A stretch of 64,000 nucleotides of DNA from assembly GCA_010672585.1 (NCBI GenBank), contig JAAHGF010000028.1, forward strand, positions 1 to 64,000, written 5' to 3'. Numbering within the stretch: position 1 is the first letter of the stretch; each line of letters begins with the position of its first letter. Of this stretch, positions 26,319 to 41,985 are shown piece by piece. Source of the DNA: Okeania sp. SIO1I7 (GTDB lineage: Bacteria > Cyanobacteriota > Cyanobacteriia > Cyanobacteriales > Microcoleaceae). The notes beneath the pieces are model-generated. The model was given only the letters and a program-made list of their open reading frames with translations. It searched no databases and was not told where the DNA came from. The position numbers were made by a program, and so were the translations under genes.

Positions 26319-26697
26319 TTTCAGAATGGTTAGATAAAATCAGTTAATCAGTTAATCGCTTAATGGCTAATAGCTAATAGCTGAATAGGTTATTAGTTGT
26401 TAGCCATTAATTTTCAGCTGCTCCATAAAAAGGAAGTAGATGGTTATAGTAGTAACGCCAGAGAAATCAGATCAAAGAGATTAGATCGCTAAACCCTATA
26501 TAAGGGTTTGATACTATTCTTACAGCGCTTTTCATATTGATGAACCACATCTTCACAATCACAACCCAGTAGGGACGTTCCATGGAACGTCCCTACTGTG
26601 GTCTACCCAAATGAAAACCGCTGTAATATATTTTTTACCAAAGTACCGTTAAGTTCGGCAACAGTATCAGTTGCGACTCAAACCCCTCCGTTTGCTG
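26319..26697. other. Spacer downstream of the protease, with one MITE
   Basis: Convergent intergenic region between the protease and the leftward lipid cluster. It holds AGCTAAT/AGCTGAA heptamers (about 26350-26400) and the family 3 element at 26521-26625. No gene is seen. Confidence 0.6.
26521..26625. mobile_element. MITE-like element, family 3, copy 2
   Basis: Same length (105 bp), TACAGCG.../...CGCTGTA ends and central 26-bp palindrome (26570-26595) as the copy at 14511-14615, with only scattered differences. It sits at the downstream edge of the lipid gene cluster. Confidence 0.75.
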
Positions 26698-27567
26698 TCA
26701 CAACGCTGGAAGGCTACAATTAAGCCATTCAAGCAAATGCTGATTAATTTCTTGGTAATTTTCTAATTGAGGCCAATGATTGCAATTAGACAATCTTAGA
26801 TATTGCCATTTTTCTTGCACTAGACTTCCTGTTTTTTTCATTTGATCTTCTGCCATAAAATTATCTCCCGAACTCCAAATTCCAAGAGTTGGAACTTTTA
26901 TCAAATTTTTTAACTGTGATTCTTTTTTTTGAAACGAAGACAAAACGACAGGGATTACAGGATTTGCTTTTTCCCAAACTTGAATGTAGAAAGGATCTTT
27001 GTCCTGCAAGAATTTATCGATCACACTTTCTCTGTCAGGATGACCTCGTAATACCCATCTAAAAAAGAATCCATTCATGAAACGATATATAGGAACAGCA
27101 ATAGATAAGGGGTTAAAAATCAGATACCAGCTCTTGATTAATGATTCAAGAGAAACATTTCTGACTAGAACAAAAGGATGTCCTACTGATATTGCGACAT
27201 AGGATACAAGTTTCTCTGGATATCTTTCTGCTAATTCCCAACCGACCACTGCACCGTAATCGTGAGCAATACAATGTGTATTTCTCAACTTCAATGCATC
27301 TATTAGGCCAACTACATCAGAAGATAGAGAAGCAAGTGTATATTTACTCAGATTTTTGGTCTTTTCACTTTTTCCATGACCGAGCCAATCAAAACAGATA
27401 ACACGATATCCAGACTGCACTAAGGCAGGAATTTGAAATCTCCACAGGGAACAATCATCTGGCCATCCATGCAGTAAGATAACGCTAGCACAGTTGGAGT
27501 CAGAGTTATTGCAATATTCTTGAACATAGTACTCACAACCGTTGATTTTAATGTAGCTTTCTTGCAT
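26698..27567 (-). CDS. Alpha/beta-fold hydrolase, epoxide hydrolase/dehalogenase-like
   Basis: A 289-residue soluble hydrolase. The oxyanion region is LLHGWPDD. The nucleophile elbow reads HDYGAVVGWELAERYP, with Asp at the nucleophile position as in epoxide hydrolases and haloalkane dehalogenases, not the Ser of esterases. The acid is probably in GIWSSGDNF and the catalytic His in NCNHWPQLEN. It is the last gene of the leftward block headed by the acyl ligase-oxoamine synthase, 80 bp after the transporter gene, and may tailor or recycle the cluster product (inference). The substrate cannot be read from the sequence. Confidence 0.85.
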   Translation of the reverse strand: MQESYIKINGCEYYVQEYCNNSDSNCASVILLHGWPDDCSLWRFQIPALVQSGYRVICFDWLGHGKSEKTKNLSKYTLASLSSDVVGLIDALKLRNTHCIAHDYGAVVGWELAERYPEKLVSYVAISVGHPFVLVRNVSLESLIKSWYLIFNPLSIAVPIYRFMNGFFFRWVLRGHPDRESVIDKFLQDKDPFYIQVWEKANPVIPVVLSSFQKKESQLKNLIKVPTLGIWSSGDNFMAEDQMKKTGSLVQEKWQYLRLSNCNHWPQLENYQEINQHLLEWLNCSLPAL

Positions 27568-27647
27568 TGAGCTTAATCTCCTATTTGGAATATCTTTAAT
27601 ATGACAATCTGGGCAAAAAATAGTACTAATAATGATGGCTAGATATC

Positions 27648-28484
27648 TTAAATATTGAGATCATAAGAACGTCTACAATAGAAAGATACTAGCAAGTTAA
27701 TAATCACTTCAACTAACCCAAAAGCAATCACAGTGGTTTCTATATCTGTTTGAGGAAAAGTTTTTATGGCAACAAGCAGCATCAAAGCTAAGTTTCGCGA
27801 TCCTGTCGTAAAAATCAAAGATTTTTGAGTATAAGCTTTAAAGTTCCCTAATTTCCAACCAATGACTAAAGTTGATACATTAAAACCTATTATCGCCACA
27901 ATAGATAACCATTCTAAATTAAAAATAATACTAAATTTATTGAATAAAAAAATAACTAATAGTGATACAAAAAGAATATCAGAAATAAACTCGACCGGAC
28001 GCAATAATTGCTTAACTAAAGCTTTATTACGATGATGAATAACAAAACCAACGATTAGGGGTAATAACTGGAATAATATTAAACTCCCGACGATAGGCAT
28101 AACATTAATCAGTAAGTTTCCTTCGCTAAAATAAGCCAATTGAACTGCTAAGGGTGTTACAACCACTGCTAAAATTGACAAGATAAATGTCAAGCTAACG
28201 GCAGCGGATAAATCGCCACAAGCAATCGCCACTAATTTAGGCGCAAATGCCGCTCCAGGAGCTACTGATGCAAGAAAAAGAGTAAATGCTGTAGTTCTTG
28301 GAATATCGATCATTTCCGTAAAAAAATAAGTCGCGAATGGTATGAACAAAAAATTAGCCAGTAAAGAACTGATTATTAGTCGAGAGCGTTGAAGGGTGTG
28401 AAAAATATCTTGTGCTGTTATTTGAAAACTAAGCGACAGCATTAGGGTTACGATAAAAAGTTGTAACAAAAATGTAACTATCAT
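27648..28484 (-). CDS. BASS (bile acid:sodium symporter) family transporter
   Basis: A 278-residue polytopic membrane protein of about nine or ten hydrophobic helices. The N-terminal LSLSFQITAQDIFHTLQRSR and FLASVAPGAAFAPKLVAIACGDLSAAVSLTFILS match the BASS superfamily fold. The ATG at 28484 overlaps the stop of the acyl-CoA dehydrogenase gene by one base (TGATG), which indicates translational coupling; a TTG at 28490 is the alternative. Animal SLC10 members carry sulfated and amphipathic organic anions, so export or uptake of a sulfated lipid made by this cluster is an attractive but unproven role. Confidence 0.8.
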   Translation of the reverse strand: MIVTFLLQLFIVTLMLSLSFQITAQDIFHTLQRSRLIISSLLANFLFIPFATYFFTEMIDIPRTTAFTLFLASVAPGAAFAPKLVAIACGDLSAAVSLTFILSILAVVVTPLAVQLAYFSEGNLLINVMPIVGSLILFQLLPLIVGFVIHHRNKALVKQLLRPVEFISDILFVSLLVIFLFNKFSIIFNLEWLSIVAIIGFNVSTLVIGWKLGNFKAYTQKSLIFTTGSRNLALMLLVAIKTFPQTDIETTVIAFGLVEVIINLLVSFYCRRSYDLNI

Positions 28485-30085
28485 CAGCAATACAACATTT
28501 CGTCTAATGAGTGCGATTCTCCAGAGAGAGTTTGTTCGATATCTCCAATCGTGTAAGAGTAATTGCCAATTATATCGTTGATAGTTTCAGGATCTGACAT
28601 TACTAGTTCTGCTGGAGTTCCAGACAAAATTCTTTCTAGTTTTTGCTCAAAACACAATTTTGCCCAAGTGACTGTACGATGCAGTCTCTTAGAACCAGAA
28701 CGTTCAAAAGCTCCTTCAACTGCCGCTAATACAATTCCTAGAGTAGTTATCTCGCCAGTACATGCATATAGCCAACGACTTGCAGTATTTTTGTCTGCAA
28801 AAGAAAATCCTGAATTAGTATATCGATCCTTAATCTGCTCTACTGCTATCCTTAAATCTTCAGCTATTTGAGGAGTTTCTAAACCGTGACAAATAAATTG
28901 ATATAACTCTTCATTTTTTACATTTATCCTAGAACCAATAAACATATTTAAAGTTTCAGTAGGACCCTCATAAATGCGAAGAATTCTCGAATCGCGTAAT
29001 AGCTGGGGCGCAATATTAGTTTCTATATAACCCCGTCCGCCTAGCATTTGAACTAGGCTGTCAGCAGCTTGCCAGAAGAACTCCGAACCAATTATTTTAC
29101 AGGCAGCATAGGCTTCTATAGGAATCCTAGACCCACCATCTAGTAACACAGCAATTCGAGTAACCAAACTTTCCACTGCCATAATATGTTCCGTTATAGT
29201 TGTTAACTTCACGAGTGTTACTGGATTATTGATTAATCGACCTGTTGATATATTTCGACGTTTTGCATAGCGAAGTATTAGTTGGGCGCACCGCTTCATT
29301 CCACCCAGACTGACAGCTGTAATACATAGACGTCCGTACATCATTGCATCTTGAGCAACTTTCATACCCGCTCCCAATTCACCTAATAAATTCTCTGAAT
29401 CTACAGAAACATCGTCTAAATGTACTGCATTCTGAACCATGCCACGCAAACCCATAGTCAATGCTTCCAGTCCTTGTCTCAAACCTTTGCTTCCTTGGCG
29501 AACTACAAAACCACTGATTCCTAAATATTGACCTTCATTGTCAAAAGTTTGGACAAAAGTATTAATCGTACTCGCCCATGCTGCCGAGCCAATCCAGATT
29601 TTATTTCCTTGCAATTTCCACCCTCCTCGACTATCTGGTATGGCTTTTGCTGAAATGGCTTGAGGGTTTGATCCAGCTCCTTGCTCGGTAAGGGCAAAAG
29701 CAGCCAATTCTCGACCTGTAGCAATATGGGGAAGAAGTTCGTCTTTAAGATTGTCAGACGCATAATTCATCAAGGGACGAATCCCAAGAAAGTTATGAAC
29801 TCCAACAAATGAAGCTAATGTAGCATCGATAGCACCTAGCTGTTGTATCAACCGTAGAGTATCTTGATTACTCAGACCAATTCCACCGTACTTAGGTAGC
29901 ACTTGCATCCCCAAGAGTCCGCGATTCCCAAAATCAAGGACGATGTACGGTGGTATACAACGACGTTCGTCAATTAGACGAGAATTAATTCGCTCTTTCG
30001 CATAACTCCGAAGCCATTCTAGTAAATCGTCTGTGAGATCTTTACGTTTTGTATTTTGCTGATCTTGATATGACATTGTTTGCAT
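28484..30085 (-). CDS. Acyl-CoA dehydrogenase family protein
   Basis: A 533-residue FAD enzyme introducing an alpha-beta double bond into an acyl thioester. The N-terminal helical domain is followed by AFALTEQGAGSNPQAISAKA and the beta-domain NKIWIGSAAWAS. The C-terminal helical domain carries QMLGGRGYIETNIAPQLLRD and RILRIYEGPTETLNMFIG, which contains the family's conserved Tyr-Glu-Gly catalytic-base region. About 140 further residues follow, as in the longer members that act on carrier-bound acyl chains. It is coupled by overlap to the downstream transporter gene. In this cluster it may desaturate the acyl chain used by the synthase (inference). An alternative ATG lies three codons in. Confidence 0.9.
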   Translation of the reverse strand: MQTMSYQDQQNTKRKDLTDDLLEWLRSYAKERINSRLIDERRCIPPYIVLDFGNRGLLGMQVLPKYGGIGLSNQDTLRLIQQLGAIDATLASFVGVHNFLGIRPLMNYASDNLKDELLPHIATGRELAAFALTEQGAGSNPQAISAKAIPDSRGGWKLQGNKIWIGSAAWASTINTFVQTFDNEGQYLGISGFVVRQGSKGLRQGLEALTMGLRGMVQNAVHLDDVSVDSENLLGELGAGMKVAQDAMMYGRLCITAVSLGGMKRCAQLILRYAKRRNISTGRLINNPVTLVKLTTITEHIMAVESLVTRIAVLLDGGSRIPIEAYAACKIIGSEFFWQAADSLVQMLGGRGYIETNIAPQLLRDSRILRIYEGPTETLNMFIGSRINVKNEELYQFICHGLETPQIAEDLRIAVEQIKDRYTNSGFSFADKNTASRWLYACTGEITTLGIVLAAVEGAFERSGSKRLHRTVTWAKLCFEQKLERILSGTPAELVMSDPETINDIIGNYSYTIGDIEQTLSGESHSLDEMLYC

Positions 30086-30123
30086 GGTTTTTAAATCAAA
30101 AATATTTTATCGAACTCTGTATA

Positions 30124-31041
30124 TTAATCGTTGCTTATTTGACCTGTAATATAACTTTGTTCTCCTGTGATTGAGGCATTTTTTGGTATGCCCAAATACC
30201 ACATAACAAGACGATCTAGGACTTTGCTTGGAAGTATTTTAGATAGTAGAATATTTGTTTTGGCATCCAGACCAACAATATATCGATTTTTTGGTTTCTC
30301 TTCAATAATTGCTCTTGCAATTACTTTTGCTACTGCATCAGTAGAAAGACCATTTTTTTCTAGTTTTCCAGCTGTTTCTTTGACAGCTTCAAATATTGGA
30401 GAATATAGCTGTTTGGCTTGCTCTGGAAATTTCTCCCATATTTTATTTACTTGATCGATCGATTTGTTCCAAATTGGGGTTCTAACTGTTCCTATCTCAA
30501 TAATAGAAACATCAATTGCCCAAGGCTTTAACTCCATTCGAAGTGCATCTGTTAGTGCTTCCATAGCAAATTTAGAAGCACAGTAAGGACCTAATAAAGG
30601 CCCAGAAACTCTACCGTAATCAGAACCTATGTTAATAATTCGTCCTTCAGATTTTCTCAATAACGGTAGAAAAGCCTGCGTTACTGAAATTTGTCCAAGT
30701 ACGTTAACTTCAAGTTGCTTTCTTAATTCATCTATAGGAAGAAATTCAAGTGGACCTGTAGTAACAATTCCTGCATTATTAATCAGACCAGTTAGTCCAT
30801 GAACATTCAGTAAAGGTTGAATTGTTTCTACTGCCATTTCGATGGACATCCGATCGGTAACGTCAAAGATAATTGGAATTACCCTATCTAGGGTCTTACG
30901 CTTTAGCGTTTCACCATCAACTTTGTTACGGACACCTGCAAAAACCTGATAACCTAACTGATCCAAGTAAATAGCACAAGCCTCGCCTATTCCACTTGAT
31001 GCTCCACTAATTGCAATCGAGCCTTTTATAGATCTTTTCAT
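30124..31041 (-). CDS. Short-chain dehydrogenase/reductase (possible 3-keto reductase)
   Basis: A 305-residue classical SDR. The nucleotide loop is ISGASSGIGEA (residues 11-21), the NNAG motif is present, and the catalytic Ser-Tyr-Lys set reads NIGSDYGRVSG and YCASK. An Arg in GVRN after the second strand suggests NADP(H). The C-terminal ~100 residues carry a hydrophobic patch. In a cluster with an alpha-oxoamine synthase, the natural role would be reduction of the 2-amino-3-keto intermediate to the 3-alcohol, as 3-ketosphinganine reductases do. It lies 38 bp upstream of the dehydrogenase gene on the same strand. Confidence 0.88.
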   Translation of the reverse strand: MKRSIKGSIAISGASSGIGEACAIYLDQLGYQVFAGVRNKVDGETLKRKTLDRVIPIIFDVTDRMSIEMAVETIQPLLNVHGLTGLINNAGIVTTGPLEFLPIDELRKQLEVNVLGQISVTQAFLPLLRKSEGRIINIGSDYGRVSGPLLGPYCASKFAMEALTDALRMELKPWAIDVSIIEIGTVRTPIWNKSIDQVNKIWEKFPEQAKQLYSPIFEAVKETAGKLEKNGLSTDAVAKVIARAIIEEKPKNRYIVGLDAKTNILLSKILPSKVLDRLVMWYLGIPKNASITGEQSYITGQISND

Positions 31042-31083
31042 TTTTAGGATTGAAATAGCCTATGCAAAAAACATTTAAAACTT

Positions 31084-31210
31084 AGGGTCTGTCATCAATT
31101 AGAAGTTAGAAGCTGTGTCAGTCAAGGTTTTTAGCCTCTGGAGTCTTTCAATACCAAAAGCTAAAAACTCTTGCTACATAGCACTTTCAGATTTAATTGA
31201 TGACGCGCTC
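31084..31210. repeat. Inverted-repeat element with GTCATCAATTA arms
   Basis: Left arm AGGGTCTGTCATCAATTAG and right arm TTTAATTGATGACGCGCTCT are imperfect inverted repeats about 90 bp apart. It lies between the SDR and PEP-CTERM genes inside the cluster, and may be another MITE or a transcript-stabilising or terminating stem. Confidence 0.45.
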
Positions 31211-31226
31211 TAGGTTTGGAGCAAAA

Positions 31227-31808
31227 TCAAACAGTTTTGTTTAGTTTTCTATGACAAGAAAAACGAATACTCATCAGGCCAGTAAACAACATTCCCATTA
31301 ATAAGGAAGGCTCTGGCGTAGAAGCATAATCTTCTGTGGTAACTAGAGTAATAAAAAGCGCTGAATCAGCTTCTGGGTTAGTTTGAAAATCTGCAAAAAA
31401 GACCTCATCTACCCCAATGATTCCTTGGGTAAAAGAAAGCTGTTGCCCGTTGTTAGATATATCAATATCGCTAAAGATATTAGAAACTCCACCGACGAAG
31501 AAAGCCGGTCCCTGAGGGCGATTTTCGGGGAGATCGGCAATTATGCCTACGATAGGAAACGCTGTATCATTTATATAGGGTTCTGGAGGGGTTGGAAGAT
31601 TGGGATTGACATCTGGAACGATACTTAGCACACCTGGACTGCAAATTTGTACAAAGGCACAAACTCCTTTGGGTGCTTGATCAAAAACAGTTGGAGGGGT
31701 GTCGAACGTTATACTAAATTCTGTTCCAACGAAACTAGCAGCATTGGCAAGACTGGCACTTCCCAAAACAACAGAGGCAGTTCCCAAGATAGATAGTACT
31801 TTTTTCAT
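31227..31808 (-). CDS. PEP-CTERM sorting domain protein
   Basis: A 193-residue exported protein of unknown function. The ATG at 31808 gives a clean signal peptide (MKKVLSILGTASVVLGSASL, cleaved near ANAA). The mature part is beta-rich, with no recognised domain and two cysteines in GVCAFVQICSPG. The C-terminus is TPEPSLLMGMLFTGLMSI followed by RFSCHRK: a PEP motif, a hydrophobic helix and a basic end. That is the PEP-CTERM signal recognised by the exosortase system, which sends proteins to the cell surface. It lies within the lipid cluster on the same strand, perhaps only by chance. The longer frame to 31919 adds an unlikely leader. Confidence 0.85.
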   Translation of the reverse strand: MKKVLSILGTASVVLGSASLANAASFVGTEFSITFDTPPTVFDQAPKGVCAFVQICSPGVLSIVPDVNPNLPTPPEPYINDTAFPIVGIIADLPENRPQGPAFFVGGVSNIFSDIDISNNGQQLSFTQGIIGVDEVFFADFQTNPEADSALFITLVTTEDYASTPEPSLLMGMLFTGLMSIRFSCHRKLNKTV

Positions 31809-31980
31809 AATAGAATAGATGATAAGAAAGACAAAGTAAAGGTTTAAAAAATCAAGGTTGATTCGAGTAAATATTTTCCGATCAAAAGTTAAAAAACTAT
31901 TCTTTGATCGAATAATCATTTTCTGAATCGAGGTTAATAACAGAGCCGTTCATTTGGGTCAAACGAACAAGAATTGCAAC

Positions 31981-33144
31981 TTAATTACTATTGATACATG
32001 GTGGTTGATATCCCCAACGATCAATCCAATGGCTCCATGCTTTCCGAACAATTTGTAAATTTTCTTGGTCGTATTGATAAGTGTTTTGTTGGTAATTTTT
32101 TTGCTCCTCTATATATCGCTCAAAGTGGGGGAATGCACTTTCCCATCCTGAAAAATTGAGCTGTGTATAAACTTGTTTTAATGTTTCCAAAGGACGATCT
32201 CTAACTTGCTCAAAACTAACTTCAACAAGCCTATTTGATGGAATTGATTGCTTTTGACGATCGTATGCTTGCATCATGAGTATGTATCTCCTCAGAATAC
32301 CTTCATGTAATTCTTTTAAATCAAATAACTTTTGAAGGCGCATATTTTGCGTGTGTATCTGGATCATTTTGATATTAGATTCAAATACCTCATAAGGATT
32401 GCGATAGATATGTATAAACCGAGCTTGAGGAAAGAGCTGTGTCAAGGCAGCAATTCTACAAGTATTCACAGGGTTTTTTAGCAGCAAAGGACGACCTCTA
32501 AAAGACAAATTTATCTTTTTCAAAAACCATAGATAATCTTGCTGCCAAGCTGCAAATTCTTCTGCTCCTATATTTTCAAACAAAGCATATCGTCGAAAAA
32601 AATCATCAGTCATCTGCGGAAAAATAACAGCATGATAAAAGGAACGATGAGAATAAGACAATAGAGCCTCTTCTTCTTCTTCTGGCATATCTAACTTGAC
32701 TTTTACCCTATCATATCCTCGATCTTCAGGCAATAGATTAGATAATATAAACCTGAATCGCTCGAAAGTAAAAAAGGTTTTTGGATAGAAAACATTAAGA
32801 TGTCTTGGCGTTGCCCATTGAGGATCTTGAGTGAGTATATTGTGCAGATGCGTAGTACCACTGCGCCAATGACCAATGACAAAAACTGGATCTTCAGTAA
32901 GTCGTGCAGCTTCAATACGAGAACCGTAAATAAAATCTTCGTATACAGAAAAGGGAAATTCAGCAAGACTTCCTAGCAAAAAGATACAAGCTCTTCCTAG
33001 ATAAGGCATATCGACACCATACTTACTAATAAAAGAAAGAAGAGTGATCAGCGAGTTTTTCCGAAAGGAGCTACAGATCGATATCCTTGTATTAATATCG
33101 AATTGGGTATTTACTGTATTATTAGCCACAATATTGTTGGTCAC
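31981..33144 (-). CDS. Sulfotransferase (PAPS-dependent)
   Basis: A 387-residue enzyme transferring sulfate from 3'-phosphoadenosine 5'-phosphosulfate to a hydroxyl or amine. The 5'-phosphosulfate loop is VIGHWRSGTTHLHNIL (about residues 88-103). The 3'-phosphate-binding region is ARFIHIYRNPYEVFESNI. It falls in the broad bacterial sulfotransferase group. It lies 198 bp downstream of the ligase-carrier-oxoamine synthase gene on the same strand, so the likely acceptor is the alcohol (or amine) of the lipid produced there. This is the main reason for predicting a sulfated product; the acceptor itself is inferred. Confidence 0.9.
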   Translation of the reverse strand: MTNNIVANNTVNTQFDINTRISICSSFRKNSLITLLSFISKYGVDMPYLGRACIFLLGSLAEFPFSVYEDFIYGSRIEAARLTEDPVFVIGHWRSGTTHLHNILTQDPQWATPRHLNVFYPKTFFTFERFRFILSNLLPEDRGYDRVKVKLDMPEEEEEALLSYSHRSFYHAVIFPQMTDDFFRRYALFENIGAEEFAAWQQDYLWFLKKINLSFRGRPLLLKNPVNTCRIAALTQLFPQARFIHIYRNPYEVFESNIKMIQIHTQNMRLQKLFDLKELHEGILRRYILMMQAYDRQKQSIPSNRLVEVSFEQVRDRPLETLKQVYTQLNFSGWESAFPHFERYIEEQKNYQQNTYQYDQENLQIVRKAWSHWIDRWGYQPPCINSN

Positions 33145-33342
33145 AGTTCTTCTCGAGTAAGATTGAAAAAAAAACCATCTTCCTCATGTAATGAGTTAGA
33201 TAAAAAACTGGTTGTCCTACATAGTAATGGTGAAGATACATATTTTTTTATTTCTTCCCACACTATCTCTACCATTACTATGCACAACTACCAAAAAACT
33301 AACAGGTATAGATCGATTGATAGATAAGACAGCTTGCTAAAC

Positions 33343-36300
33343 TCACAATTTCTCTAGTAATTCGGCAATGGTTTCAGTAGTGAATTTTATCTGCTCTTCC
33401 GTGTGTAAAGACGAAACAAAAAATCTTAATCTCGCCTTATCAAAATCTACTGCCGGATATCCAATAGCAAAAACATTAATGCCTTTTTTATAAGCAGCAT
33501 CCGCCAACCTAGTCGCTCGATCTGAATCTCCTACAATGATGGGGACTACTCCCGAACCTTTGCTAGTACCTATATTTAGCCCTTTTTGTTGGGCAAGTTC
33601 TGAAAAAAGTTGGGCACGATCTTGAAGCTTCGATACTAATTGATTGTCTGACTGGAGTTTTTGGATGGCTGCCAATCCCGCTGCCACATTGGCAGGAGAA
33701 GCTCCAACAGTGAAAAGAAATCCTGGCGAAGAATGTTTTAAGTAAGCAATTAATGATTTACAACCGGCAATATATCCTCCACTACTACCTAAAGCCTTAC
33801 TAATAGTTCCCATCCAAATATCAACCCTGCTCGGATCGATGCCGAAATGTTCTCCTACCCCTCGCCCAGTTTCACCCAGGACGCCAATTGAATGAGCTTC
33901 ATCAATAAACAACCACGATTTGTAGCGCTCCTTAATCTCAATAAGTTTGGGCAAATCGGCAAGAATATCTCCATCCATGCTATAAACCCCTTCGACCAAT
34001 AGAAGGACACGCTGATAATGCAATCTATTCTGCTCTAAAATCTCCTCAAGGGCTTGTAAATTATTATGAGAAAAGGATACTGTCGTTGCACCAGACAATT
34101 TACTCCCCATCAAAGCACTATTGTGCATATATTTGTCGTGTACGATCAGATCGTTAGGGCCAACAATAGAGCTAATTGCATAAACATTAGTTGCATGTCC
34201 ATGGCCAAATACCATCGCATCTTCAGTACCTAACCAGCGAGCAATCGTATCTTCTAGTTCTTGATGTAAAGGGGTCTCGCCTGAAACAATTCGACTCGCA
34301 CCGGCAGAAGTTCCATACCTTTCAACTGCTAGTTGGGCGGCTTTTATAACATTGGGATCGCTAGAAAGGCGCAAATAGTCAAAGCTTGAAAAGTCGATAT
34401 ATTCTCGATCATCAATCAACGTAGTTGACTTTGTAGATTTCTGTTTGGCCCTAAAGTAGGGATAATCTAGCTCTCCAGACTCATAAATTGAGAATTTTTC
34501 TTTAAAATCTAGATATTCAGGCAGCAAGTCAAAATGATAGTACTCTGGCAAAACGTCTTGTAAAGACCCGAATTGCTTTGCTGCAGAAGAATCTTCAAGG
34601 GTATCAATTTCAGTATCTCGTGCTGCATCTTGCTCCTTTGCCATTAAAAATAGCTTGTCAACTCGATCGCCCAATCGATGAAGAATATGTGCGCTCAATT
34701 CACGGATGGTTGGGTAAACAAAGATAGTGCCTTCTGCCAGACGAACATCTAAGAGCTTTTCTATTTCAGAAGCAAACTCAATTGCTCGCACTGAATCCAA
34801 TCCATAGTCGATGAACTGAGAATCCGAAGCAATTTTTTCGGGGGGGATGCTCAATTCTGCCTGACTAACAATCCACTGCTTCATCCAATATTCTAGGATT
34901 TTTTCTGGATTCTCTTCATTTGAGCTAGAAGATTTAGGTCCTGTAGATAACTTGTTCTGTTGTGGAACATTTGCTTCAGTCTTTCCAAGAAGAATTTTTA
35001 ATTCACCATTTAAGTACTTTTGTTTGCAAGCAGATCTCTGGATTTTTCCGCTAGAAGTCTTAGGAATTGATGCTGTTTTAATTAACACCACTTCATGAAC
35101 CTGCAACTCGTATTCCTCAAATACAGCTCGACGAATACGTTTACTTAATTCAGTGACATCAATTTTTCGGAGATATTCTCGTTTCACCTCTTGGACAATA
35201 ACTAAACTCTCTGCCCCATCTAGATCAATTGTAAAAACTGCACCACAATTTAGACGTAGTGACAGATCGCTTTGCTCGACAGTAGTTTCAATATCTTGAG
35301 GATAATAATTGCGACCTCGAATGATAATCAAATCTTTGATGCGACCCGTAATAAATAATTCTCCGTTATTTATAAAACCTAAGTCTCCAGTTCTTAGAAA
35401 AGGTCCTTCTCCTGTATCCGTCAGATAAGCTTTAAACGTTTTTTCCGTTTCCTCTGGCTTATTCCAGTAACCTCTAGCAATGCTAGTACCTTTCACTAGA
35501 ATCTCACCAACTTGATTGAAAGGAGTTTGTTTCAGGGTGTCTGGATCGGCTATAACAACTTTCGTATCTAACCAGGTACCGCCACATCCAACAAACTGTC
35601 TGATATCTTGAGTATTCTCGTCAGCTGTAACGATACAATTTTCTTCTAATTTGCTAGCCCGAACTGTCAGGTAAACAGGCTTATCAGCAGGAGAACCACC
35701 TGATATCATTAGAGTAGATTCGGCCATGCCAAAGCAGGGATAAAAAAACTGAGGTTTAAAACCACAAGGAGCAAAGAAGTCGGAAAAACGTTTTAAGGTT
35801 TCAGCGCGCACTGGTTCTCCACCACTATAAGCAGTTAACCAAGAGCTTAGATCTAGAGTATCTCTCAAATCGGATCTGACTTTATCAAGACAAAGATCGT
35901 AGCCAAAATTAGGTCCTCCACAATGGGTGGCTCTGTATCGGGAAATTGCTTGTAACCACAGCAAAGGATTAGATACAAAAGAATCAGGAGACATTAAGAT
36001 ACCATGAAACCCCGTATACAAAGGCTGGAGAATACCATCAACCAATCCCATGTCATGAAAGATAGGAAGCCATGACACGGAAACACTTTTCGATGTTAAT
36101 TGAAACGCTGTCTTTATATATTCAGAGTTATAAAGCAGATTTTCATGACTGACAATCACCCCTTTAGGCGTACCAGTAGAACCAGAAGTGTATTGAAGAA
36201 AAGCAGTCGTATGACCGTCTATATTTGGCTTCTTCCAGTCTGAAGCTAGCTCGCTAACGACAATGTCTGTCGCTAAACAGCTTAAAGATTCTGATTCCAA

Positions 36301-36762
36301 ATATTGCGCAAAGCGCCTACGAATGTTATTTAACAAAGATGTCTCTGTCAGAACCACTTTTGCTTTTGAATCGTTGACGATTGATTCTAACCTAGACATC
36401 TTCCGATTTTGCTTGGGCGGATAAGCAGGTATTGCAATGACTCCTGCATACAAACAACCAAAAAATGCTGCGATATGCTTCAATCCTGAGGGATAGAGAA
36501 GTAACGCTCTATCTCCCAATGAAGTATGTGCCTGTAGAAAAGCAGCGATAGCTTTTGCCCGCAAATCCAATTCTGCGTAAGTGATAACGATTTCTTCTTG
36601 ATCAACAAGAAAAGTAAAGGCTACTTGATGAGGCTGTTGTAAAGCTCTCAATTGTAACAGTTCCACTAAATTTTTGCTAGGAAAACTCACATTTACGGGA
36701 GAACTTTCCGTTTTTTCGTCAGTAGAAAATTCATTGGTGTACATGGGATTAGACTTAAACAT
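33343..36762 (-). CDS. Fused fatty acyl-AMP ligase - acyl carrier - alpha-oxoamine synthase
   Basis: A three-domain enzyme of about 1140 residues. Domain 1 (to ~620) is a fatty acyl-AMP ligase: LQYTSGSTGTPKGVIVSHEN, GGPNFGYDLCLDKV and TGDLGFI. Domain 2 is a carrier protein with the phosphopantetheine Ser in DYGLDSVRAIEFA (codon near 34800). Domain 3 (last ~350) is a PLP-dependent alpha-oxoamine synthase: LFIDEAHSIGVLG and the PLP Lys in TISKALGSSGGYIAG (near 33800). Known chemistry implies activation of a fatty acid, loading onto the carrier, then decarboxylative condensation with an amino acid to a 2-amino-3-ketone, as in serine palmitoyltransferase. The start is uncertain: in-frame ATGs lie at 36795, 36762 and 36744, none with a clear ribosome site. 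It heads the leftward cluster and faces a TetR gene. Confidence 0.93.
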   Translation of the reverse strand: MFKSNPMYTNEFSTDEKTESSPVNVSFPSKNLVELLQLRALQQPHQVAFTFLVDQEEIVITYAELDLRAKAIAAFLQAHTSLGDRALLLYPSGLKHIAAFFGCLYAGVIAIPAYPPKQNRKMSRLESIVNDSKAKVVLTETSLLNNIRRRFAQYLESESLSCLATDIVVSELASDWKKPNIDGHTTAFLQYTSGSTGTPKGVIVSHENLLYNSEYIKTAFQLTSKSVSVSWLPIFHDMGLVDGILQPLYTGFHGILMSPDSFVSNPLLWLQAISRYRATHCGGPNFGYDLCLDKVRSDLRDTLDLSSWLTAYSGGEPVRAETLKRFSDFFAPCGFKPQFFYPCFGMAESTLMISGGSPADKPVYLTVRASKLEENCIVTADENTQDIRQFVGCGGTWLDTKVVIADPDTLKQTPFNQVGEILVKGTSIARGYWNKPEETEKTFKAYLTDTGEGPFLRTGDLGFINNGELFITGRIKDLIIIRGRNYYPQDIETTVEQSDLSLRLNCGAVFTIDLDGAESLVIVQEVKREYLRKIDVTELSKRIRRAVFEEYELQVHEVVLIKTASIPKTSSGKIQRSACKQKYLNGELKILLGKTEANVPQQNKLSTGPKSSSSNEENPEKILEYWMKQWIVSQAELSIPPEKIASDSQFIDYGLDSVRAIEFASEIEKLLDVRLAEGTIFVYPTIRELSAHILHRLGDRVDKLFLMAKEQDAARDTEIDTLEDSSAAKQFGSLQDVLPEYYHFDLLPEYLDFKEKFSIYESGELDYPYFRAKQKSTKSTTLIDDREYIDFSSFDYLRLSSDPNVIKAAQLAVERYGTSAGASRIVSGETPLHQELEDTIARWLGTEDAMVFGHGHATNVYAISSIVGPNDLIVHDKYMHNSALMGSKLSGATTVSFSHNNLQALEEILEQNRLHYQRVLLLVEGVYSMDGDILADLPKLIEIKERYKSWLFIDEAHSIGVLGETGRGVGEHFGIDPSRVDIWMGTISKALGSSGGYIAGCKSLIAYLKHSSPGFLFTVGASPANVAAGLAAIQKLQSDNQLVSKLQDRAQLFSELAQQKGLNIGTSKGSGVVPIIVGDSDRATRLADAAYKKGINVFAIGYPAVDFDKARLRFFVSSLHTEEQIKFTTETIAELLEKL

Positions 36763-36795
36763 ATTTATGGTACAAGAGCAAAATCGTGAGGGCAT

Positions 36796-37206
36796 AGGTT
36801 CGCTTTAAATAGCTGACAGAACCAGCTCTGCACAGCATAAGTTTAAGTCCAGCAACAATATGCAACAAGGCCGTAGAAACATATAAAATTTGGACAAAAA
36901 ACAGAATTTTTAGAAAACATATCCAGGACTTCAGCAAAAATAGAAGTTTCTGCTGGAGAAAATCACAGCAACAGAAAAATGAGTTAATATGATACCCTTA
37001 GTAAAAACAATTCCTATGCATGCATTTGTCCTATATTGATGTGACAATTGCTATGCCGATAAGTGTGCTTAATAGCACTCTACTAAAAATGAGGTTTTCT
37101 CACATTTTGCTACTAAAACCAACTTAATTCCAATCCTAAACTTTTGTCAAGTAGAAGATTTATTTGCATAGCTTATTGATTACAATAGATACTATATTTT
37201 TTTCTA
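36796..37206. promoter_or_regulatory. Divergent control region between the ligase-synthase and tetR genes
   Basis: 411 bp with no gene between divergently transcribed genes, so it should hold both promoters and the regulator's operator. A short palindrome ATGCATGCAT is at about 37016-37026. I cannot pick a convincing operator or -35/-10 pair. Confidence 0.4.
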
Positions 37207-37818
37207 ATGAAACATGAGGCACTCCGTAAACTACCTCAACAAGCTCGTAGCCGTAAAAGATTTAATCAAATCTTAGATATGGCTGCTCAGATATTTGAAG
37301 AGATGGGCTATGAAGCTACTTCCACTGAATTAATTGCGGAAAGAGCTAATACTTCAATTGGTTCGATCTATCGCTTTTTTCCGGACAAAGCAGCTATTGT
37401 ATATGCTTTGGCAGAACGATATGCCGAGCAAATGCAAAGTCTTTTCGCCACCTATTTTCATTTTTCAGCAGTACATAGTCCCCTCGATAAAATTGTAGGT
37501 GATACCATTGATGCTTTCGATGATTTCTATACCAAGCAACCCGGATGTCGTGTAATTATGTTGCAATCGTTAATTTCACCTGAAATACAAGAGATAAATA
37601 AGCGGGCAGACCACATGATCATAGAACAAATGGATGCTTTTTTCGCAGTGCGAAATCCCAAAATAGATGCGGCTCAACGCAAATTGGCTGCCTTAGTAAG
37701 TATTGAAATTGCTAATACACTTCAGCTATGGGCTCTCACTCAAGACGATAAATTTAGAAGACAAATTATAGAAGAAACAAAAAAGGTTATTATTCGCTAT
37801 CTTGAAACGATGTTCTAA
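37207..37818 (+). CDS. TetR/AcrR family transcriptional regulator
   Basis: A 203-residue repressor-type protein. The N-terminal helix-turn-helix domain is plain: RFNQILDMAAQIFEEMGYEA, then STELIAERANTSIGSIYRFF and PDKAAIVYALAERY. The C-terminal ~140 residues form the ligand-binding helical part, which contains no residue pattern revealing the ligand. Divergent orientation from the acyl ligase-oxoamine synthase gene suggests it controls that cluster, possibly sensing a fatty acyl compound or the product. A dead IS1-type transposase gene begins about 40 bp downstream. Confidence 0.9.
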   Translation: MKHEALRKLPQQARSRKRFNQILDMAAQIFEEMGYEATSTELIAERANTSIGSIYRFFPDKAAIVYALAERYAEQMQSLFATYFHFSAVHSPLDKIVGDTIDAFDDFYTKQPGCRVIMLQSLISPEIQEINKRADHMIIEQMDAFFAVRNPKIDAAQRKLAALVSIEIANTLQLWALTQDDKFRRQIIEETKKVIIRYLETMF

Positions 37819-37855
37819 GCTGTTACGCAGCTTACAGGAAAACTATTGGAAACCT

Positions 37856-38534
37856 TGCTGTGGTGGTGACCATATTGTTAGTTAAAAATGGGACAATTCA
37901 TAATAAAAAACAGAAATATCAATGTCAAGCCTGTCAAAGACAATTTTTTCAAATAACTCCAAAGTATATATCAACAATCAAACCAAATAATTGATTGATA
38001 AATTATTACTAGAAAAAAATCAGTTTAGCTGGCGTTATTAGTGTAACAGGTGCATCTGGAAAATTGCTTCACACATTAATTTAACCTTAAGTATACAGAG
38101 GTTTCGCAGTTTGTTAAATGTGCTAAAAAAACCAGGAATACTCACCATTGAATGTGATTAAATTTGGTCATTTGTTGGGAGTAAAAATAACAAGCAATGG
38201 CTCTGGCTAGCCATTGATATAGAAAACAAAGAAATCGTGGGTTTCTTTTTAGGAGAAAGAGGAGAAAAAGGCGCATTGGGATTGTGGAATTCATGGCCTA
38301 GGAGCTATAGGCAATGCACAATTTGTTATACAGATTTCTGGTCAGCTTGTGATTTGATTTTTTCTGATTGTAGGTATATATTCAGTGGGAAAGGAAACTG
38401 GTTTAACTGCCCATATAGAAAGATTAAATAATACTTTACGTCAAAGACTTTCTCGTTTAGTCAGGAAAACTTTATCTTTAAAATTAGAAAATCATTTGGG
38501 TGCTATTTGATATTTTATTCATCATTATAATTAA
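37856..38534 (+). pseudogene. Degenerate IS1-family transposase
   Basis: Fragments in several frames match the IS1 InsA/InsB type. They are a zinc-ribbon part with KNGTIHNKKQKYQCQACQRQ, a helix-turn-helix part (LLLEKISLAGVI type), then SFVGSKNNKQWLWLAIDIE, IVGFFLGERGEKGALGLWN and CYTDFWSACD. The end is NNTLRQRLSRLVRKTLSLKL and YFIHHYN before TAA at 38532. Frameshifts near 37885 and 38380 and several stop codons (including TGA just before YFIHHYN) show it is dead. It borders the lipid cluster on the tetR side. Confidence 0.85.
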
Positions 38535-38690
38535 GCGTTGGCGGAGAAAGTGCGACAGCTATATCGCTTCACCGTAATTTGATCACTACATATATAGTAC
38601 TACCCAATATTTTAATGCTACCGGATTTGATATTACCCAATATTTGATGCAATAATATTTCGGCACTATGAGCGATAATACTGTCCTGTT

Positions 38691-40368: not shown

Positions 40369-41985
40369 TTATATGTTATAGTCTACAAGTCTTTGCGCGA
40401 TAGAAGAACCAACATCAATACCGGATTCTCGAGTGACACCCCTTATGCCGCCCCCAGGCAGATGCCCCATGTAATGCAAATTCTTATCCTCAAACAGCTC
40501 TCTGTAGCTCAACCATTCGTCTCCTTTTCTCCATCCTACTTTCTCTCCAAACTTTTCCCATACCTCTCGATTATAATCTTTTGTTCCACCCAATTCCTGA
40601 TAAATTTTCTTCTGTACAGAAAAGCCAAACTTACCATTACTATATTTTACCCAAAGTTGGTCAATTGTGCGGAGGTCTGTACAAGGAAAATTTTCTATAT
40701 CTTCTATGTCTAGATATCCTTGCTCCTCTCGCCCCGCAACTTTCAACATACAACGAGCAGTTTCCATATCTGCCTCTTTCCACTCCTTATTTACTAGAAA
40801 TTCACGGAGTTTTGTATAGTCTACATTTTTGTCAGAAAGTAATTCTATTTCATCATTTTGAGGGCTAGTTTCAATAGCTTTTGCCACCGCAAAAACTTCA
40901 GAATTTGATTCTGATAACTCTGGTAAAAATCGTTCCTCAATATCTGCAACATCCTCATCTCTCAATCCTAAAAGTGACTGAATTTCCCGCAAAGTTTCAC
41001 GAGTATTTTCTGTAAAAGGATAAGATTTTTCAACAGCTTGACTAAAGATTTCCTCATAACGCTTTAACTTGTTCCTAAACAGAATATAAGGTTCCATTTC
41101 CTCAGATTCAATTGCCTTTGCCTCCTCAGAAGATATACCATATCTCTTGCATAATTCCTCCAATAAAAAACGATTGAGAAAATCTATATCGCCATTATTT
41201 TTACGCAATATTTCCTGCACCTTGCGACGATATTGCAACTTCGGATCATCCTGTGGCGAACTTGCTAAATAAATTCGATAACCTTCCTTTACAGGTGCAA
41301 ATTGAGGAGTCATTGCCGGAGATTCTTCATATACCTTTTCACTAACATATTGATGCAATTCATCGGCTGAAATTTTGCCATTATTATCGGTATCCGCTGC
41401 CCCAGTGTTAATCCCTTCAACTAGATATTTTGTATAAATAGATAATTCTGAACCTTCCGACTCAAAAGAACTTTGAACAGCACTAGAAGACATCAAAATT
41501 GCCCTACCTTTACCCCCTAATTCTGCTTGAATATCTATATTTTCATCCCCTTTAGCAGTCATTCCTTTAGTAAAAGCACCACTATAACAACAGTCAAGAA
41601 TCACAACAAGACGTTGGGAATAACTATCATTCATTTGACCTTGTAGAACACTAGCACCCACAGCAGTCGGCGTAACAATTCCCCGTTGACCTTTGCGAGT
41701 TTGAGGAGTAGCTAAAAATAAATTACCCTCTCGACTTTTAACTCCATGACCAGAAAAATAAAAAAGTAAAACATCATCCTTATTCCGGTCAGCAAACAAA
41801 TCATAAATAGCCTCTTCTATCTGTTGACGATTGGAATTTTTCAACACCTTAATATCATCAAAACCTCCCATTTCCGAATTACCCAAAACTTCCTTCATTG
41901 CCTCAACATCTTTCAGGGTACTAGGCAAAGCAGGAAATTCTGGGAGGTATTCACTAACTCCAATTAATAGAGCTATTTTTGCCAT
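40369..41985 (-). CDS. Caspase-family protease (peptidase C14) fused to a GUN4 domain
   Basis: 538 residues. Residues 1-245 form a caspase-like domain with the catalytic pair His80 (FYFSGHG) and Cys133 (ILDCCYSGAF). An EF-hand-like loop DTDNNGKISADE lies near 197-208 and could bind calcium. Residues ~255-370 form a helical repeat region (RRKVQEILRKNNGDIDFL; LLGLRDEDVADIEERFL). Residues ~388-520 match GUN4: EWKEADMETARCMLKVAGRE, LRTIDQLWVKYSNGKFGFSV and the GWRKGDEWLSY region. GUN4 binds porphyrins and stimulates Mg-chelatase, so this could be a tetrapyrrole-responsive protease. The small gene 41998-42372 ends 12 bp upstream, suggesting one operon. No signal peptide is seen; a cytoplasmic location is likely. 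Confidence 0.9.
   Translation of the reverse strand: MAKIALLIGVSEYLPEFPALPSTLKDVEAMKEVLGNSEMGGFDDIKVLKNSNRQQIEEAIYDLFADRNKDDVLLFYFSGHGVKSREGNLFLATPQTRKGQRGIVTPTAVGASVLQGQMNDSYSQRLVVILDCCYSGAFTKGMTAKGDENIDIQAELGGKGRAILMSSSAVQSSFESEGSELSIYTKYLVEGINTGAADTDNNGKISADELHQYVSEKVYEESPAMTPQFAPVKEGYRIYLASSPQDDPKLQYRRKVQEILRKNNGDIDFLNRFLLEELCKRYGISSEEAKAIESEEMEPYILFRNKLKRYEEIFSQAVEKSYPFTENTRETLREIQSLLGLRDEDVADIEERFLPELSESNSEVFAVAKAIETSPQNDEIELLSDKNVDYTKLREFLVNKEWKEADMETARCMLKVAGREEQGYLDIEDIENFPCTDLRTIDQLWVKYSNGKFGFSVQKKIYQELGGTKDYNREVWEKFGEKVGWRKGDEWLSYRELFEDKNLHYMGHLPGGGIRGVTRESGIDVGSSIAQRLVDYNI

Follow-up and report, generated by a model that had tools for sequence, protein, structure and literature searches.

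A candidate mobile gene unit of Okeania for a sulfated, unsaturated sphingoid-type amino alcohol

A stretch of 64,000 nucleotides from Okeania sp. SIO1I7 (contig JAAHGF010000028.1, positions 1 to 64,000; here called the window) carries an eight-gene unit in which seven genes run leftward and one gene, for a TetR regulator, diverges from them at the head. We propose, giving the idea about an even chance, that this unit spreads horizontally and directs the synthesis of a sphingoid-type amino alcohol with a 4,5 double bond and a sulfate group. Its central protein fuses a fatty acyl-AMP ligase, a carrier, and an alpha-oxoamine synthase (AOS). What is new here is that a dehydrogenase and a sulfotransferase accompany this fusion in one mobile unit. 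We infer the reactions, the substrate, the product, the amino acid, and the position of the sulfate from sequence.

In the proposed pathway, the ligase domain would activate a fatty acid as acyl-AMP and load it onto Ser668 of the carrier, whereupon the dehydrogenase would render the carrier-bound chain alpha,beta-unsaturated. In a decarboxylative condensation, the AOS would join this chain to an amino acid, L-serine being the likeliest, and the acyl C2=C3 would become C4=C5 of a 2-amino-4-en-3-one. A short-chain dehydrogenase/reductase (SDR) would then reduce the ketone to a sphingosine-like base, the sulfotransferase would move sulfate from 3'-phosphoadenosine-5'-phosphosulfate (PAPS) to a hydroxyl, O1 or O3, and the BASS protein would transport the anionic product, with expression under TetR. 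Dehydrogenation of acyl thioesters occurs at C2-C3, and condensation turns the acyl C1 into C3 of the base; the double bond would therefore lie at C4-C5, as in sphingosine.

Conservation and mobility of the unit

The carrier-AOS part of the fusion was used to search 386 genomes of the phylum, which returned a single close match besides the host genome (G002, 68% identity), and 388 genomes of the order, which added a further one (G473, 67%). At these two loci, L127 and L185, respectively, all eight genes lie in identical order and orientation. Since two further genomes repeat the complete block in the same gene order, we take it to be no chance arrangement, and the genes that the original prediction had grouped together belong to one conserved unit. 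G002 and G473 represent two genera of one family, which is another family of the order than that of the host, and the genes flanking the unit differ in each.

Three sister species (G602, G555, and G596) lack an inserted segment of about 12.2 kb (26424 to 38617, borders approximate) at the same chromosomal place. The sequences that flank it in the window occur there at 95 to 97% identity, about 0.2 to 0.9 kb apart (L212, L213, and L214). In G590, also of this genus, the flanks sit on separate contigs, and several of the compared genomes are fragmented. The four other same-genus genomes searched hold neither the fusion nor a close sulfotransferase. Moreover, G002 and G473 share 95.6 to 96.0% DNA identity across the unit and 81.6% across the tetR part, versus 70.6% (2.67 kb aligned) across one comparison gene, presumably an M16-type peptidase by our reading; a single gene is a thin control, though the contrast is large. 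Because the sister-species flanks lack the segment, and because the unit is about 96% identical across genera against about 71% for the comparison gene, these comparisons indicate that the unit is mobile, moving between cyanobacteria.

In L127, the unit lies between two directly repeated copies (300 nt at 95%) of a sequence that we take to be hypD-like from our own reading of the open reading frames (ORFs). An insertion sequence with a DDE_3 transposase splits the gene for an exported protein in this locus (L127 12519 to 13553), removing its tail; cells may be able to do without the exported protein, or the unit of G002 may have been damaged recently. A DDE_Tnp_1 transposase gene adjoins the unit of L185, near which we read genes as chlL/chlN. 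In the window, a degenerate repeat element (37857 to 38607) lies at the right border and shows about 80% similarity to a sister-species copy, in which that stretch has no ORF of 100 amino acids (aa) or more (ORFs of 60 aa and up were listed); it is probably a transposon remnant. A sequence of about 36 bases within the element (38533 to 38570) is present once in the window and, among the matches listed, recurs many times in same-genus genomes, where copies are in places about 96 to 100 bases apart. The unit does not stand out by its GC content. A plasmid collection held no record covering 80% of the fusion in one place, and for the window flanks it returned nothing, or short or distant matches only.

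The ligase-carrier-synthase fusion

The fusion (33343 to 36795, leftward; 1150 aa; Pfam AMP-binding, PP-binding, and Aminotran_1_2) is 62 to 64% identical to its counterparts in L127 and L185. The ligase spans about residues 41 to 602, Ser668 marks the carrier, and the AOS spans about 750 to 1150. Among NCBIfam models, those for fatty-acid-AMP ligases (FAAL) score 446 and 414 bits with the ligase part, versus 305 or less for acyl-CoA-ligase models, none of them over its cut-off; matches in the Protein Data Bank (PDB) include FadD32 and FadD28. The ligase domain thus appears closer to FAAL than to acyl-CoA ligases. The AOS keeps the catalytic residues found by alignment with serine palmitoyltransferase (SPT), namely, the pyridoxal phosphate (PLP) lysine Lys1000, the PLP-stacking His891, Asp965, and the carboxylate-binding Arg1124. 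Its best PDB sequence matches by phmmer are SPT subunits, and the top Foldseek matches of its fold are KBL and SPT, from a predicted model with a pLDDT of only 66. Domains and catalytic residues together support the earlier view that a FAAL-carrier-AOS architecture would be suited to forming a 2-amino-3-ketone. In an AOS tree of 55 rows, the three units are grouped with full support, and fusions of 1095 to 1130 aa in L146, L190, and L191 fall outside the 49-row group that contains them.

One residue bears on the choice of amino acid. Position V79 of ThAOS gates amino acid size and is Ser in SPT and AONS and Thr in ALAS (PMC11906848). In the fusion, Ser834 aligns with ThAOS V79 and SpSPT Ser102, which favors serine or alanine over glycine, without deciding between those two. 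Alanine is the substrate of AONS. The synthase might use alanine or glycine to give a 1-deoxy base that has no C1 hydroxyl and takes sulfate at O3 only, a variant in keeping with Ser834 being the AONS residue too and with the acceptance of Ala, Gly, and Ser by ThAOS V79S (PMC11906848). We hold it to be unlikely, given that SPT subunits rank first in the phmmer search and that SgaB, a bacterial AOS that makes sphingolipids, strongly prefers serine, according to the accessible part of its report (PMC12134224).

The synthase also bears on how sulfur would enter the product. Sulfonolipids of the SulA/capnine type resemble the predicted product, in that an acyl-ACP-fed AOS makes a sulfur-bearing sphingoid analogue, and they differ in that their sulfonate comes from cysteate, as far as the excerpted source describes (PMC9304779). 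That such bacterial analogues exist speaks for a capnine-like route here, with a synthase that uses cysteate and an unrelated sulfotransferase. However, the column of the active-site Lys281 of SulA (same excerpt), by our own count, holds Val1030 in the fusion and Thr in L127 and L185, and a PAPS-type sulfotransferase would be superfluous in such a route. With Val1030 at the SulA Lys position, we set the cysteate route aside as scarcely credible. Because the SulA-type Lys is replaced, sulfur more probably enters through the sulfotransferase, and would come from PAPS, than through cysteate.

The predicted double bond

The dehydrogenase (28484 to 30085, leftward) is a long acyl-CoA dehydrogenase (ACAD) of 533 aa with a YEG motif and the Pfam domains Acyl-CoA_dh N/M/1; its best PDB matches are ACAD9/VLCAD, and it is 68% identical to its counterparts in L127 and L185. 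Fatty acid catabolism was considered as its context and set aside, there being no further beta-oxidation gene in the block.

Two relatives of the unit bear on the chemistry. In G382, from another family, ligase, ACAD, carrier, and AOS form a single protein of 1683 aa (L129:8971-14019), with three Pfam ACAD domains between ligase and carrier and an SDR nearby that is 61% like that of the unit. This domain order suggests that dehydrogenation takes place on the carrier-bound chain. Because G382 fuses all four enzymes, the dehydrogenase of the unit probably acts on the carrier-bound acyl chain as well. The open-licence literature searched describes no such four-enzyme fusion. The second relative, in G546 (L186, 1 to 8097), has a sulfotransferase 55% identical to that of the unit beside the end of a polyketide synthase (PKS; dehydratase, ketoreductase, carrier, and AOS domains), a DUF1254/DUF1214 protein, and an SDR that is 31% like the unit's. 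The part of this PKS on the contig, whose end cuts the protein, contains no enoyl reductase domain (E<=1e-6); by contrast, such a domain is present in the PKS-AOS of G590, a genome without a close sulfotransferase. Both the ligase-dehydrogenase route and the polyketide route of G546 would thus yield an alpha,beta-unsaturated chain for the synthase, and both assemblies would therefore lead to a 4,5-unsaturated sphingosine-like base. The argument draws on a handful of architectures and no statistic. The product had originally been called perhaps unsaturated; its unsaturation can now be placed by argument at C4=C5, by way of the G382 fusion, for a product that is itself predicted.

A wider contig set, which may not include close kin of the window, was also searched for relatives. 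The matches (best 80 loci) were mostly ligases; the full fusion most similar to that of the unit comes from a planctomycete (L039, 41%), and the 18.5 kb of L039 hold no relative of the other unit genes. The host genome has a paralogous locus, L128 (G000:C22:149344-150840), with a separate ligase, a carrier-AOS, an SDR, and an FAD-binding protein; a carrier-AOS like that of L128 occurs in the four other same-genus genomes searched. A number of the AOS matches listed for the order lie within reading frames longer than 2000 aa, which are probably polyketide synthases with a terminal AOS, as confirmed by Pfam for L186 and L187. In G546, a gene of the Amino_oxidase family lies further on, beyond ORFs that we read as transposases.

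The SDR and the sulfotransferase as partners of the synthase

The SDR (30124 to 31041, leftward; PF00106, adh_short) is a probable 3-ketone reductase with the motifs SGASSGIG, NNAG, and YCASK. DHRS9 is its sole PDB match at 1e-25, and it is 60% identical to the SDRs of L127 and L185. In 29 loci fetched around AOS genes, a ligase relative lies within 6 kb of the AOS in 20, and an SDR lies within this distance in 15 (13 of 27 once L185 and L186 are left out). By comparison, 31 PF00106 matches in the 9.48 Mb of the host genome give an expectation of about 0.04 per 13.5 kb, a figure from another search method and one genome, to be set against loci of which several are close kin and not independent.

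The sulfotransferase (31981 to 33144, leftward) matches PF13469 (Sulfotransfer_3; 4e-33) at 115.9 bits against a gathering cut-off of 27. All four close members, that of the host included, contain GHWRSGTTHL and RNPYEVFES, which we take to be PAPS-type sulfotransferase motifs. A structure predicted from the single sequence had a pLDDT of 35 and was not usable. An AOS match (E<=1e-100) occurs in 97 of the 388 order genomes, and a sulfotransferase of at least 55% identity occurs in 4, the host included. In 4/4 of these, the sulfotransferase adjoins an AOS, with an SDR there too. The original prediction had tied the fusion to both enzymes, and both other close fusions among the order genomes (67 to 68%) carry both; moreover, the same company of sulfotransferase, AOS, and SDR recurs in the different assembly of G546. 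The more distant AOS loci are mostly without a sulfotransferase. Sulfotransferases of 30 to 39% identity, which we regard as another group, occur in 34 further genomes, of which 16 also hold an AOS (E<=1e-100). In 14 of these, the two genes are on different contigs, and in the remaining 2 they lie 0.23 and 2 Mb apart; many assemblies of the set are fragmented.

The wide spread of AOS genes relative to that of the close sulfotransferase (4 of the 97 genomes), and the service of AOS domains in other pathways, as the accessible portion of a 2013 survey describes (PMC3870968), would suit an aminoketone that is a building block for a pyrrole, a pyrazine, or a longer assembly, with the sulfotransferase acting on another molecule. 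Nevertheless, the eight genes move without any recognizable cyclizing or assembly-line partner, and the close sulfotransferase stands beside AOS and SDR wherever it is found, so that we consider a building-block role very doubtful.

Points against the pathway and the place of the hydrolase

Several observations weigh against the proposed route to a sulfated 4,5-unsaturated base. Within 6 kb of the AOS, an ACAD is found in only 3 of the 29 loci and a sulfotransferase likewise in 3, two of which (L185 and L186) were chosen for it; ACADs and sulfotransferases are rare AOS partners, and SDRs are a common one. The residue at the Ser834 column is Ser in 55/55 AOS rows, including a BioF/KBL-like row of the host genome, and is thus non-discriminating. 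An Asn conserved in SPTs (SulA Asn53 in the excerpt of PMC9304779) corresponds to Phe805 by our own reading of the alignment, at a place where human SPTLC2 has Tyr. The SDR scores 144.7 bits with the NCBIfam KdsR model NF049977, far below its cut-off of 400, and the NCBIfam models listed for the unit proteins (best 25 models each for three proteins) all stay below their own cut-offs. The relatives are incomplete as well: the 20 kb of the G382 locus hold no sulfotransferase, BASS, hydrolase, or exported-protein relative, and the 14.4 kb of the G546 locus hold no ACAD, BASS, hydrolase, or exported-protein relative. No N-acyltransferase was recognized. A sulfate at O3 beside C4=C5 would be allylic and labile. 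Also, the cyanobacterial AOS Npun_R3567 gave no 3-ketodihydrosphingosine in E. coli; according to the same partly available report, it groups with BioF homologues, in an operon without a carrier gene (PMC8895605).

Finally, the hydrolase has no job in the proposed pathway. This alpha/beta hydrolase (26698 to 27567, leftward; PF00561, Abhydrolase_1; 61 to 62% identical to the copies in L127 and L185) has as its best PDB match the epoxide hydrolase 5ng7, over residues 3 to 282. HDYG, which puts Asp at the nucleophile place as had been predicted, is present together with NHW, SWY, and FYIQVW in stretches aligned with 5ng7. The tyrosines are presumably the two lid Tyr of epoxide hydrolases, and Asp nucleophile, His, and lid Tyr would together match the epoxide-hydrolase residue pattern.

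Such a hydrolase fits a different fate of the sulfate, namely, that of a leaving group. The C3 hydroxyl would be activated, and the amine would close to an aziridine (or elimination would give a diene); the pathway would end in a dysidazirine-like lipid with an aziridine or azirine ring, which the hydrolase would open or tame. Azinomycin reportedly involves a sulfotransferase-driven aziridine closure, and curacin is said to involve a sulfation-driven elimination. An epoxide-hydrolase-like gene is present in 3/3 units, the close sulfotransferase accompanies AOS and SDR in two different assemblies, and dysidazirine carboxylic acid from the marine cyanobacterium Caldora shares its carbon skeleton with a C18 4-ene base derived from serine, judging from the excerpted account (PMC8911782). 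However, the unit has no recognizable ring-closing enzyme and no recognizable oxidase for aziridine to azirine or for CH2OH to COOH, and no hydrolase relative lies in the 14.4 kb of G546, which makes this fate of the sulfate decidedly unlikely. In its fullest form, the unit would be a route to three-membered-ring sphingoid lipids: after loss of the O3 sulfate, attack by the C2 amine would give a vinyl aziridine, this would later be oxidized elsewhere to an azirine, for example dysidazirine carboxylic acid, and the hydrolase would protect the cell. A 4-ene base made from serine and carrying sulfate on O3 would be a single ring closure short of the corresponding aziridine. The hydrolase, idle in the plain scheme, would gain a purpose because a reactive ring would be made. 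Because of the missing closing enzyme and oxidases and the absence of the hydrolase from the G546 locus, we regard this full scheme as a long shot.

Other features of the unit and the window

All genes named in the original prediction were borne out in position and family (ORFs, with families called over Pfam cut-offs), including the divergent TetR gene at the head (37207 to 37818, rightward; TetR_N, PF00440/PF17918), which is 68% identical and likewise divergent in L127 and L185. The three divergent promoters share no common palindrome as a TetR operator. The predicted overlap of the dehydrogenase stop with the transporter start, TGATG, is present in the DNA. The BASS/SLC10-type transporter (27648 to 28484, leftward; PF01758, SBF), with its start put at the ATG of this TGATG (ORF listed to 28490), is 41% identical to those of L127 and L185 and is the least conserved member of the unit.

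The one gene overlooked in that prediction lies between the sulfotransferase and the SDR and encodes the exported protein (31227 to 31808, leftward; ORF listed as 31227 to 31919, likely start 31808). By our reading of the sequence, it has a signal-peptide-like start, and its tail (TPEP) resembles PEP-CTERM weakly (PF07589, 14.7 bits with a cut-off of 20.7; TIGR02595, 11 with a cut-off of 16). The L185 protein (57% identical) scores 14.5 with PF07589 and 18 with TIGR02595, the latter over the cut-off, and the interrupted L127 protein (62%) has no PEP-CTERM match in the Pfam scan. Among the 388 order genomes, the exported protein matches strongly in the three unit carriers only and weakly (29 to 34%) in three more. 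An exosortase gene exists in the host genome. Beyond the unit, at 40372 to 41985 (leftward), the window encodes caspase-like (Peptidase_C14) and GUN4 domains within one protein.

Relation to known systems

The pathway had been put forward as one not recognized as described. This holds for the unit with sulfotransferase and dehydrogenase, which was not found in the open-licence literature searched, some of it accessible in part; it does not hold for the fusion type, which has been known since 2013 (PMC3870968). The available portion of that survey tabulates AMP-CP-AOS fusions, with Blastopirellula and Microscilla in its Table 2, and models the AOS of the AMP-binding enzyme B1XHP8 from Synechococcus PCC 7002. 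These fusions share the three-domain layout (A-CP-PLP2), and their product is likewise unassigned there; in contrast to the unit, the main text has no sulfotransferase or acyl-CoA dehydrogenase.

SgaA-SgaB-SgaC of Pseudomonas fluorescens MYb115, like the unit, combine an assembly-line chain, an AOS with SPT activity, and a KDSR-like SDR, and they make sphinganines (PMC12134224). They differ in having a PKS for chain building and a free-standing AOS; the part of the paper available mentions no ligase or ACAD, and its text contains no word beginning with "sulf." No iterative PKS of this type is found among the unit genes, and the G546 relative has a PKS. In Caulobacter, AasR, AcpR, and SPT resemble the unit in that a dedicated ligase loads a dedicated carrier feeding an AOS, but these are separate proteins and the excerpt available mentions no sulfation, whereas the unit has them fused, with an ACAD and a sulfotransferase in addition (PMC9386255).

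Two cyanobacterial lipids invite comparison. Dysidazirine carboxylic acid is a C18 compound with a 4E-ene, an azirine at C2-C3, and a C1 acid; it has the skeleton of the predicted base, and it differs as an azirine acid without sulfate, for which the accessible text names no gene cluster (PMC8911782). Mooreaside A, a cerebroside from Moorea, is built on a sphingoid base from a cyanobacterium, as predicted here, but the base is C17, glucosylated, and N-acylated, with a 5,6 double bond that does not match the 4,5 prediction, according to the excerpt at hand (PMC6272925). A link to mooreaside A was set aside for the position of this double bond.

Conclusions

As of 2022, cyanobacteria had yielded only two identified sphingolipids, with no genetic basis reported, according to the portion of that study available (PMC8895605). 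Little is known about sphingoid-type lipids in these organisms, and the unit offers a way into their genetics. It is compact and conserved and could be tested in a single heterologous strain; because it moves, related strains that carry it can be compared with others that lack it. Should the ring-lipid scheme be true, the unit would supply genes for azirine lipids that have spread among cyanobacteria by horizontal transfer. Should the sulfated 4,5-unsaturated base that we propose be the product, the unit would represent a bacterial route to the sphingosine 4,5 double bond by acyl-carrier dehydrogenation before condensation, not by desaturation of the finished lipid, and this route would be coupled to sulfation.

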